Shown one piece after another: positions 4,101 through 24,843 of a stretch of DNA of 24,843 nucleotides. Position 1 is the first letter of the stretch. Each line of letters begins with the position of its first letter. Under the pieces are notes generated by a model. That model was given only the letters and a program-made list of their open reading frames with translations, made no database searches and was not told the DNA's origin. Made by a program: the position numbers and the translations under genes. Origin of the DNA: a virus; IMG/VR virus record IMGVR_UViG_3300008050_007069, positions 1 to 24,843 of that record; one strand, given 5' to 3'.

Positions 4101-5400
4101 TTACAGCAATGGTACTTTCATGAAGCTGCCTATACTGGGGTTTGATTTCACCGCTGCGAAGTTCAGCTTCATATCTAGCCAAATCCTGCAACTTTCGAAC
4201 CTTTTCTGTTTTATAACGTCGTCTCTTTTGAGCTAGACTTCCTAGGGACGGCTCTGGTGGACCACCTACTGCTCCAGCCATGGCTAATGCACCAGCTTCT
4301 TCTTCCTCCTGTGAAGCAGCATATGCTCCTAAAAGAAGACCAGCAACACCTACAAGTCCCTTCGGAAATTTAATTCCTAACTTCTTTGCTTTAGCTAAAG
4401 TTGATTTAAGTGGCTTGGTATCTCCTCTATGTCGCCAGCTTACTATCTTAGATGCTGGACCAATAACTTCATGAATTAATTGAGCCTCCATTATCTCTTC
4501 AATAAGCAACGGGCTTTCAACTTTATTCATTATATCCATTGCCCAATCTATAAATTCTTTGGCAATCTTTTCGTTCCTAGCTAATTTACGACCAGGGAAT
4601 TGTTCTTCGTTATAATCAGTCCCTGGAACATCCATGTACTCCGTGGCAAACTCCATTGCCTCTTTTTCTATTTGTTCAGGACTAGGTTGTGTGGTACCAT
4701 ATAGCATCCTCGACCTCGCAGCATCACTGGGCTGGAGTTCGTTACGTCCCCAGTATTCTCCTGCTACAGGATTCTCCATCGATCGTCTAGTTTCTGCTTC
4801 GTCTATAGGTCCTAGGATTTGTTGAGTTGCGGCAATTGGTTCAGTTGTCCAAACTTCGGGTGAAGGGCTAGCCGACATTACCTGTTTCAATTTAGGCTTC
4901 TCGGCAATGTTATTTAATGTTTCGACCAAACGACTTACCTTCTCCTCCAGCCCATGTGGTTGCCATTTTCCCCCTCCTTTTTTCGCTAGCTGTTCCTTAA
5001 GCATCTCTTTAACATCTAAAGGATCCATCTGCTTAAGAGTGTTAACTAACTCAAGCGCTTTAACATCGTCTATCTTCGAAGCTAATTCAATTGCAGATTC
5101 TAGAGGTATACCTACAATATTAGAACCAGGAAGGGGTTCAAATCTTTTAGAAATTCGGTTAATCGCACTTATTAACTGTTCTATAGTATAACCAGTCATC
5201 AGCGATCTAGTCAAAACATCGGACACAAGACTATTAAAATGATGTCGTGTCATAGTCATAATAACTGTGTCGTTCCAGAAAAGAGGTCGACCCCATAGCT
5301 GTTTACCAGTCGCACGATATAAGGTAGCCCCTTCTGCAGGTAATTGAATTTTCTTCCTAGGATTCCTAGGATCGGTATATGTCGGTCCCTTTTCAGCCAT
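1165..5400 (-). CDS. Giant (1411 aa) modular protein with internal duplications, probable virion or ejected protein
   Basis: No enzyme motif was recognised. The protein has a repeated architecture. A Lys-rich stretch, a hydrophobic stretch, a Glu-rich stretch and then A(M/L)AMAGxxGGP occurs around residues 337-388 (EEEEAGALAMAGAVGGP) and again around 920-965 (REEGAAMAMAGGIGGP). The peptide DDTRGRKP(K/R)TAGMT occurs at about 464-478 and 719-734. A helical segment of the form DKxIxAxxKxI precedes one motif on each side (SLDKHIEALTKNI; EIDKGIAAANKRI). The C-terminal third is Pro-rich, then has a hydrophobic patch around VATGIGTMVFTDLIQIL. The ATG overlaps the stop of the 71-aa gene (TAATG, GGAG 8 bases upstream). 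Its size and late position suggest an internal virion or co-injected polyvalent-type protein. The duplicated short motifs could be processing sites; that is inference. Confidence 0.6.
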   Translation of the reverse strand: MAEKGPTYTDPRNPRKKIQLPAEGATLYRATGKQLWGRPLFWNDTVIMTMTRHHFNSLVSDVLTRSLMTGYTIEQLISAINRISKRFEPLPGSNIVGIPLESAIELASKIDDVKALELVNTLKQMDPLDVKEMLKEQLAKKGGGKWQPHGLEEKVSRLVETLNNIAEKPKLKQVMSASPSPEVWTTEPIAATQQILGPIDEAETRRSMENPVAGEYWGRNELQPSDAARSRMLYGTTQPSPEQIEKEAMEFATEYMDVPGTDYNEEQFPGRKLARNEKIAKEFIDWAMDIMNKVESPLLIEEIMEAQLIHEVIGPASKIVSWRHRGDTKPLKSTLAKAKKLGIKFPKGLVGVAGLLLGAYAASQEEEEAGALAMAGAVGGPPEPSLGSLAQKRRRYKTEKVRKLQDLARYEAELRSGEIKPQYRQLHESTIAVIKEAIASLDKHIEALTKNIQAMNEVQISDFLDDTRGRKPKTAGMTAATLPIAGDKPENWLEDLPTDKPTTVWRSEGGRKPYAKKIKPNKVKVIEGDQYQEFSKLRKQGKLRGTEGKTGLSYPQIDVLVGEHYRRMGYDFLFVKRRDKAGESLFHKSFDPAEVWDISDPRNIKWYTPTPSGAELYAVRHKSWSGAGQDRAAAMAAREAVFGPYPPFKSSPTRPEIVSPTDPVMGEHYAERQMQHIEKLESQPYIELDEGKPLTRYGGTQRPSLAKPILEQYGRGGHLDDTRGRKPRTAGMTVKLPDPYWVERPKKAVFKQGIANAIYGGDISKVQKEDMKHFAKRWKEFTGYLIEDVIEAVGIMSPEELVGAERQMMEELNIILSINDAAMAEQAKPKPKFEKVTTSIETEMNEVLTQLTTDKTRTTAALNRALDDARNGPTPAARNQAAALANVARKNILEIDKGIAAANKRIADSKQGKLKSRKGKPKGKGKGKAGLFALLGLPFLDPEDREEGAAMAMAGGIGGPGDEPPDYWAEREAGIEKWKGEDPYGTTKRFPHTVWDNLEEKIATGGTTSRQELERRVGMKLGEAIRPPTWAEHEAGRLAAREHARNILSVPDPQPPKTARPPGTARPKALVRPQGYDIGGRHGRTVPPVIDPPPPEGPLATVEPIRIPPIDVGKLYPESTKPASGRFRPIPHLDTLAKRAGEEAVVALDVARKTHPEAITAIEQRIQGININRAVATGIGTMVFTDLIQILTNPDIPWASEEYYGGYEPDPRLPPGRRPARRTGERTQEYTKRQALEEWAWQIPDILTFGGLGVVRAAGSVREQMDPQYVGPIFGAPEGEETAGAVHTGVPSLVRPRSWEASLATEPTYRQDIYEADTERAAAEVKALTGAAPTEFGTTPRMAIGEDILDKETLKYQSLSPEEKQGDWGMAERDKIRFQTPSVFEYFDASAGYPTSKFNLRTAFEQLTEPE
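2201..2236 (-). repeat. Two tandem copies of an 18-base unit in the 1411-aa gene
   Basis: The units 2201-2218 and 2219-2236 begin with the same 12 bases and differ at only two positions. They encode the Pro/Ala/Arg/Thr-rich stretch PKTARPPGTARP. This looks like slippage in a linker. Confidence 0.7.
3201..3245 (-). repeat. 45-base direct repeat, copy 2 (encodes DDTRGRKPRTAGMT)
   Basis: Matches 3966-4010 at 44 of 45 bases. The single difference turns an AAG Lys codon into AGG Arg. It lies 765 bases (255 codons) from the other copy, in the same frame of the 1411-aa gene. The flanking sequences are unrelated. Confidence 0.9.
3966..4010 (-). repeat. 45-base direct repeat, copy 1 (encodes DDTRGRKPKTAGMT)
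   Basis: Partner of 3201-3245, identical at 44 of 45 bases including synonymous positions. Such DNA-level identity points to recent duplication, gene conversion or selection on the nucleotide sequence as well as on the peptide. Confidence 0.9.
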
Positions 5401-5615
5401 TATTCTTTCTCCATTAATCTTTCAAGACGTAACGTTATAACTTCTAATCTTGTAGTCACAGTCTTTAATTGACCTACAACTATCTGAACTTCTGTTACAT
5501 CCTTTTCCAATGCTGACAATCTCCATTCAGTTTCTGCCTTAACATATCCGACCGTAAAAACCCATGAGGCTAATACCAATAATAATGTAAGCATATGTTT
5601 GCGTAACCAATCCAT
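5400..5615 (-). CDS. Small protein with one N-terminal membrane segment and a coiled coil
   Basis: 71 residues. After MDWLRKH comes a hydrophobic segment (MLTLLLVLASWVFTVGYV, about 8-25), then a heptad-like helix to the end (WRLSALEKDVTEVQIVVGQL, then LEVITLRLERLMEKE). This layout, a membrane anchor with a coiled coil on one side, is shared by XhlA-type lysis proteins and by short spanin-like proteins, but no family motif is decisive. It sits between the 202-aa unknown and the 1411-aa gene, whose ATG overlaps its stop. Its stop region supplies the Shine-Dalgarno GGAG for that gene. A lysis accessory role is possible because a holin-like gene lies further downstream. Confidence 0.6.
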   Translation of the reverse strand: MDWLRKHMLTLLLVLASWVFTVGYVKAETEWRLSALEKDVTEVQIVVGQLKTVTTRLEVITLRLERLMEKE

Positions 5616-23920: not shown

Positions 23921-24082
23921 TTAAGGTCTAGACCACATATCAGCCAAAAGAGAAGGACTTTCGTTATTGCTGAATTTAATCATATCTTTATATTCGTTTC
24001 TTTTAATAAGGGCGAGGATCCCAATGAGGACATTAATATTAATCAGTGTTAAGGCCATTAATATTTCCAGTATCAAACTCAT
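23921..24082 (-). CDS. Small membrane protein gene between capsid and the 410-aa gene (53 aa)
   Basis: A 53-codon frame with ATG at 24080-24082 and TAA at 23921-23923 fills the 225-base space between the capsid stop and the 410-aa gene, ending 16 bases before the next start. AAGGGG (24089-24094) stands 6 bases ahead of the ATG. The first 25 residues are almost entirely hydrophobic (LILEILMALTLINI, VLIGILALI) and end in KR, as in a single membrane span; the tail is polar (KDMIKFSNNESPSLLADMWS). Being under 60 codons, it is easily missed by automatic calling. The start is covered by a long inverted repeat, which suggests regulated translation. It could be a lysis, superinfection or capsid-region accessory protein; the function is unknown. 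Confidence 0.62.
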   Translation of the reverse strand: MSLILEILMALTLININVLIGILALIKRNEYKDMIKFSNNESPSLLADMWSRP

Positions 24083-24090
24083 TGGGATCC
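24016..24090 (-). promoter_or_regulatory. Two-tier hairpin covering the start codon of the small membrane protein
   Basis: A perfect 13-bp inverted repeat, GGATCCCAATGAG (24078-24090 on the minus strand) with CTCATTGGGATCC (24016-24028), flanks a 49-base loop that itself contains a perfect 9-bp stem, AATATTAAT / ATTAATATT (24057-24065 and 24035-24043). In the transcript the left arm contains the ATG and two G's of its Shine-Dalgarno, so folding would hide the start. The right arm lies within the coding frame (codons for LIGIL). Confidence 0.7.
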
Positions 24091-24103
24091 CCTTACGTAA
24101 ATG

Positions 24104-24131
24104 CCTGCCCCGAAGAGCAGGACTTTTTTTT
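24104..24131. terminator. Stem-loop with UUCG tetraloop after the capsid stop
   Basis: In the minus-strand transcript CCTGCTC-TTCG-GGGCAGG (24104-24121) forms a 7-bp stem, including one G-U pair, closed by a C(UUCG)G loop, starting 8 bases after the capsid stop. On the plus strand a shorter stem is followed by eight T's (24124-24131), so a terminator would work for plus-strand (antisense) transcription. For the minus strand there is no T-run, and the hairpin more likely stabilises or processes the capsid mRNA 3' end. Confidence 0.55.
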
Positions 24132-24843
24132 ATAGAGCCAGGCCAGTTACAATCGCGTTAGCACCAGGACGTGTGCAAACACAGTCGTAGTACCACTTCA
24201 TGAAACCTTCCCAAGCGTCAGCATTAGCAACGCGAGAGAGGACTGAACCATCTAGATCCGCAAATTCTGCAGAGGAAAGCTCGCACATCTTCCAGGTTTT
24301 GGTACTCAGATGAATAACCAAACCGTTGTCGACGTGACGTGACACTTTCACCGGGACGCCAGCATAACTGAAGCCAGTGAAACCACCGTCGCCTTTAACT
24401 CCTGTAGTACGCGAAGACGTATCCATCGCGATATTGCCAACCAGAAGAGCAGCCATTCTAGAACGCTGCGCAGGATTAACCAACAGGTAATCCGGAGCTT
24501 CCTCACTGCCATTGGCAGCCAGAGCAATAATATCGGTTACTGCCTGGAAATGCCGATCAAGGGACATTGCCGTACGTGCCAGTGGCGCGGCCGCAGTCGT
24601 TGTCGTAAGGAATTGCGCGCGCAACGTTGCGTTAGCAACTAATGCGCGATTAAGACCAAAGTGAACGCCTGAAGCCAGGTTGCTGTAAATGCCAGAAGGC
24701 TCAACATCCGTGATCGCAATTGCACCGGCAACTGTCGGATCAGCTTCAAGAGCTAGAGGCAAGAACTGTCCTGCCGGGCCCTGCGTTGTGGGAAAACCAG
24801 CAGCCGCGGCGAGGCCTCGGACTGTCAGCTCGATCTGGCCAGC
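24130..24843 (-). CDS. Major capsid protein (3' part, start outside window)
   Basis: The frame is open to the right edge of the window without a stop. The visible 237 codons read from GQIELTVRGLAAAAGFPTTQ to the stop TAA 24130-24132; a TTG at 24760-24762 is probably internal, not the start. Features match the C-terminal part of HK97-fold phage capsid proteins: FTGFSYAGVPVKVSRHVDNG, KTWKMCELSSAEFADLDGSV, and AWEGFMKWYYDCVCTRPGAN. The DNA is more GC-rich and more uniform in codon choice than its neighbours, as expected of the most heavily expressed virion gene. Downstream come a hairpin, a small membrane protein, the 410-aa protein and the portal. Assignment as the capsid rests on these motifs and position. 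Confidence 0.78.
   Translation of the reverse strand, partial: AGQIELTVRGLAAAAGFPTTQGPAGQFLPLALEADPTVAGAIAITDVEPSGIYSNLASGVHFGLNRALVANATLRAQFLTTTTAAAPLARTAMSLDRHFQAVTDIIALAANGSEEAPDYLLVNPAQRSRMAALLVGNIAMDTSSRTTGVKGDGGFTGFSYAGVPVKVSRHVDNGLVIHLSTKTWKMCELSSAEFADLDGSVLSRVANADAWEGFMKWYYDCVCTRPGANAIVTGLAL

Follow-up and report, generated by a model that had tools for sequence, protein, structure and literature searches.

The window, the whole 24,843-nucleotide stretch of IMG/VR virus record IMGVR_UViG_3300008050_007069 analysed here, comes from an uncultured phage and carries almost every gene on the minus strand; the sole clear plus-strand gene, a DNA methyltransferase (phrog_359, E=2e-81; 80 to 628), lies at its far end. 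The C-terminal 237 codons of the major capsid gene occupy positions 24130 to 24843 on the minus strand (PHROG major head protein, E=1.7e-7), and the 5' end of the gene lies beyond the window edge, the full-length protein in locus L002 being 467 aa. Directly after the capsid gene comes a 53-aa gene (23921 to 24082, minus strand) for a small protein with a single transmembrane (TM) segment, for which no Pfam or PHROG family was matched. Next in the gene order come a protein of 410 aa, a portal protein of the P22 type (Pfam P22_portal, E=1.6e-26) and virion proteins. Alignment searches with the capsid and portal proteins gathered about 260 related loci, and the window capsid shows 40 to 53% identity to many IMG/VR capsids. 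A single-TM ORF of 50 to 90 aa comes next after the capsid gene in most relatives; its C-terminal S-V/I-x-D-like or TPxxSV stretch is loosely conserved, and because this syntenic small ORF recurs in most of them, we regard the 53-aa gene as real. In L085 (also L084), the small gene is replaced by an ORF that begins with MNSGIYYIRNPKGKLYIGSTNNFKRR and looks by eye like a GIY-YIG homing endonuclease. Genome contigs gave no match in an exact DNA pattern search and no relative in a capsid alignment, and no close relative was found among the annotated phages searched. A holin label for the 53-aa protein is unwarranted, because lysis-like small proteins are located elsewhere in the genome, namely a 63-aa holin-like ORF (974 to 1165) and an ORF of 71 aa that combines an N-terminal TM segment with a coiled-coil-like tail and looks spanin-like by eye (5400 to 5615).

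The start of the small gene is embedded in a long inverted repeat, whose perfect 13-bp arms lie at 24016-24028 and 24078-24090 with 49 nt between them. The inner 9-bp arms described in the earlier note were also recovered (24035-24043 and 24057-24065), forming an AT-only and weak stem in the loop on the minus strand (24035 to 24065). The same note had placed the ATG and part of the Shine-Dalgarno (SD) sequence within the 13-bp stem; they do lie in the stem, but the helix is longer than claimed, reaching about 23 pairs on the mRNA (minus) strand, where a left arm from -19 to +5 pairs with a right arm from +55 to +81 around one 4-nt bulge. The left arm (24078 to 24101) holds the ATG (24080 to 24082) and the SD-like AAGGGG (24089 to 24094), identified by sequence and spaced 6 to 8 nt from the ATG, while the right arm, or anti-RBS, covers codons ~19 to 27 (24002 to 24028, with the bulge at 24012-24015). 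The window element is thereby of the general kind in which the SD or start codon is paired in a stable mRNA-strand helix. The window region gave no Rfam match at the gathering score or at E values up to 1, and the sequences of the arms do not repeat elsewhere beyond chance.

Upstream of this helix stands another hairpin, H1 (CCTGCTC-UUCG-GGGCAGG; 24104 to 24121, minus strand), with a folding energy of -9.9 kcal/mol and a distance of 21 nt to the ATG. On the sense strand, an A run precedes H1 and a U run after it is absent; on the plus strand, H1 has the form of an intrinsic terminator (CCTGCCCCGAAGAGCAGG followed by T8; 24104-24130) antisense to the capsid operon. The start hairpin likewise has no U run after its stem on the sense strand, as would mark an intrinsic terminator. 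In 34 of 39 relatives, the stretch from the capsid stop to the small gene contains a hairpin with an energy of -10 kcal/mol or below, followed in 15 by a T run, and a UUCG loop is frequent in these post-capsid hairpins (e.g., L042, L019, L089, L173). The post-capsid hairpin of the relatives is probably a conserved terminator or stabiliser. Terminator or processing hairpins of the T7 type follow capsid genes, for example T7 gene 10, and H1 resembles them in standing directly after the capsid gene, whereas the start hairpin extends into the next gene and is not followed by a T run.

The earlier note had judged arms of this length unlikely to arise by chance, and the calculation bears this out, as 200 dinucleotide shuffles gave an expectation of 0.035 perfect inverted repeats of at least 13 bp with a loop of up to 100 nt per window. 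The 151-nt region has a minimum free energy z of -4.07, and none of 200 shuffles was as stable. Because the right arm is coding, synonymous recoding is the proper null, and we applied it as weighted random recoding, which replaced codon permutation. The duplex between the start and the coding sequence (CDS) reaches -29.0 kcal/mol, compared with -12.9 ± 3.3 kcal/mol after recoding, with 0 of 2000 recodings as strong (p=0.0005), and start-to-CDS pairing as strong as that of the window occurred in none of 430 control genes. When the synonymous null was run on 248 control genes of the same contig set, p<=0.001 was reached by none and p<0.01 by 2, and a z of -2.8 or lower was found in 4 of 38 relatives versus 2 of these 248 genes (Fisher p=0.003). 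The window pairing is therefore far stronger than its protein sequence or composition would give.

The energetic consequence was calculated with folding energies for 37°C and with start codons assigned by rule. Holding the region -18 to +12 open costs 23.7 kcal/mol, compared with 9.3 ± 4.1 kcal/mol and a maximum of 23.3 kcal/mol in 250 control genes. Transcription of the right arm raises this cost from about 8 to about 24 kcal/mol, and an elongating ribosome that covers this arm brings it down to 6.7 kcal/mol. Upstream capsid translation had been proposed to open the start, but both geometry and energy speak against it: the capsid stop lies 48 nt upstream of the small-gene ATG, and a ribosome terminating on the capsid gene lowers the cost only to 21 kcal/mol, compared with 24 kcal/mol without it. 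Capsid translation is thus predicted to leave the start closed, whereas transcription still in progress or active translation of the small gene itself would be predicted to open it.

Comparison with the relatives separates the particular stem of the window from the closed start as such. Every contig in which the hairpin of the window occurs matches the window at more than 99.7% identity and has the hairpin unchanged, and the stem is absent from the nearest relatives L011, L012, L056, L156, L157, L161, L162 and L173. The sister lineages of the window, with capsids about 50% identical, mostly bury the start in a UUCG hairpin of -20 to -27 kcal/mol located 6 to 8 nt before the ATG, while the start is open in L011 and L161. 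For the earlier note, change of one arm without compensation in homologous genomes would have spoken against its proposal; the stem is indeed not conserved, but the closed start is mostly kept. In 23 of 38 loci, no other gene has a start as closed as that of the small gene, where 7.4 loci would be expected, and the small gene exceeds the other genes of the same locus in the 38 relatives with the window excluded (Wilcoxon p=1.6e-7). Homologous sequences do not count as independent observations, and for this reason we also ran tests at the level of clades and of covariation. With the upstream sequence removed, so that only own-codon pairing counts, 10 of 11 clades were positive (p=0.0034), and the own-codon opening cost lies above all 180 controls in the window, L111, L088, L179, L217, L218, L123, L147 and L083. 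On the capsid tree, the own-codon-closed start is clustered (5 changes versus 19.6 when shuffled), forming one large clade and arising separately in the window lineage and in L111. Family-wide CDS pairing showed no excess over codon permutation (p=0.17), a weak null for a 53-codon gene, which indicates that the closed start is a trait of several lineages rather than of every member. Several measures were tried, and single p-values should be weighed accordingly; the covariation result described below is independent of them.

The large clade consists of 25 distinct relatives with capsids about 40% identical to that of the window, in which a hairpin has the start codon at its base and arms formed by codons 1 to 7 and ~10 to 20. 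In a near-gapless alignment of the 25 sequences, 87.6% of the cells are paired and 13 pairs are changed on both sides, with 89 double-changed cells versus 31 after shuffling and a covariation score of 0.544 versus 0.260, which 0 of 500 shuffles reached. Sliding the helix by 1 to 3 columns drops the pairing to 40-56%. Codons 2 to 4 vary in amino acid (TDA, KEA, HSA, QDV, MDA, RDV and others) with matching changes in the right arm, giving 17 combinations, and synonymous recoding yielded p<=0.024 in 25 of 25 members. With one fixed U-G column excluded, 63 G-U pairs were counted versus 8 A-C mismatches, and this excess points to the sense (mRNA) strand; together with the finding that the window arms are not repeated elsewhere more often than by chance, it led us to reject a DNA-level element such as a cruciform or terminal repeat. 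Sequestration of the start by the gene's own codons, as the earlier note proposed, is supported by the 23-pair helix of the window and by the covarying own-codon hairpin of this clade. The compensatory changes that it looked for in relatives are strong in these 25 sequences, and the closed start extends across the family, but the window's stem itself, known from near-identical copies, has no covariation support. The covarying hairpin matched no Rfam family, and its covariance model R1, which matches L252, L264 and L217 at E < 1e-17, had no match in the window or L002. A family-wide stem homologous to that of the window was rejected because the registers differ and R1 does not match there, and the stem of the window therefore represents a solution of its own in a different register. 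In the clade of L123, L121 and L148, which has its own start stem, 94% of the cells are paired with one double-changed pair, giving no covariation evidence. Together, these computations show that this phage family repeatedly keeps the small-gene start closed, in one large clade by a covarying hairpin. In several members of the covarying clade (L083, L216-L218, L256 and others), a second long stem-loop follows closely on the start hairpin, in the codons after it (in L217, GGCCCGTTACATCTGGCT...GATGAGCGGGCC).

RBS-sequestering hairpins are known from the T4 genes e, soc, 49 and I-TevI (PMC3014915, PMC2988022), and the start helix of gene e cuts lysozyme synthesis about 100-fold (PMC3014915). The window element resembles them in that an intramolecular helix closes the SD and/or AUG within a polycistronic phage message. 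In T4 e and I-TevI, however, the strand that closes the RBS lies upstream of it, and late promoters within this strand give transcripts that omit it, whereas in the window the closing strand is 3', in the gene's own codons, and is carried by every transcript; a T4-style promoter escape was rejected because the blocking arm lies downstream of the RBS, at +55 to +81. No description of the element was found in open-access papers. The principle of a start-sequestering helix is known, and what we describe is a new recurrent variant of it, of which the window is one lineage-specific example.

Three other explanations have to be weighed. A hairpin after the capsid gene may have been selected to protect, process or terminate the capsid message, with burial of the start as a side effect of the short intergenic space. 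The strong post-capsid hairpins of the relatives fit this idea, as does the covarying clade, where the start hairpins lie 12 to 42 nt past the capsid stop with little or no separate H1 in the members examined, and RNase III could plausibly cleave a helix of about 20 bp. However, H1 and a separate start hairpin are both present in the window, L111, L119 and L123, the start hairpins have no T run, the opening cost remains raised when only the CDS is considered, and the register of the covarying helix is fixed to the start codon while the stop-to-start distance ranges from 12 to ~39 nt, so that we consider this explanation rather unlikely. A hairpin bound by a phage protein, for example the capsid protein, and repressing the next gene is suggested by analogy with MS2, in which coat protein binds a hairpin on the start of the replicase gene, the gene after the coat gene (PMC9894550). 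Both the place and the topology are similar to the MS2 TR operator, since the start codon of the gene next after the coat gene lies in a hairpin. Yet MS2 is an RNA phage with a short protein-recognised hairpin, while here the helix is long and varied in sequence; the A10 loop varies freely in length and sequence, no unpaired motif is kept, no recognition loop or bulge nucleotides of the MS2 type are conserved across A10, and the helix by itself is predicted to be strongly inhibitory already. Such an operator would be very improbable.

The perfect 13-bp repeat of the window could also have arisen recently by chance or by a mutational process, for instance template-switch palindrome formation, and have no selected role. 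The perfect arms occur in one lineage only, no sister carries them, and the window was picked as striking, with a 3.5% chance of such a repeat somewhere in it. Against this, the helix runs past the perfect arms into the SD and is centred on the ribosome site, none of the 2000 recodings matched it, and the same start is closed family-wide, which makes a purely accidental origin distinctly unlikely.

According to the above analysis, we favour, with a probability of roughly 60%, that the window element is a candidate cis-acting hairpin of the late polycistronic mRNA that would limit translation and keep the small protein scarce beside the capsid protein. The SD and AUG of the small membrane-protein gene pair with the anti-RBS from its own codons 19 to 27, and de novo initiation on the completed mRNA would then be rare. 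Because of this rarity, translation would begin chiefly on unfinished transcripts that still lack the right arm, or alternatively while an elongating ribosome occupies the right arm. The outcome may be a low copy number, or restraint of a protein harmful in excess, beside the abundant capsid protein. It seems that keeping initiation low is the likeliest role of the start hairpin, and regulated opening is speculative. With an anti-RBS in its own codons, the mRNA could be loaded only before the right arm is made or while it is ribosome-covered, and the self-burying start might even act as a nascent-transcript timer, evolved several times in different registers and fixing the ratio of small protein to capsid protein on one message; we offer this extension tentatively and think it doubtful.

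If the translation-limiting reading is true, dsDNA phages known only from metagenomes would possess a family-wide, covariation-supported RNA control element at the junction of the capsid gene and a widespread small membrane protein gene. Protein and RNA constraints would be fused, since the coding sequence itself supplies the blocking strand, and, unlike in T4, promoter choice could not lift the block. The element would thus offer a directly testable model of how one message may give very unequal amounts of two adjacent proteins.
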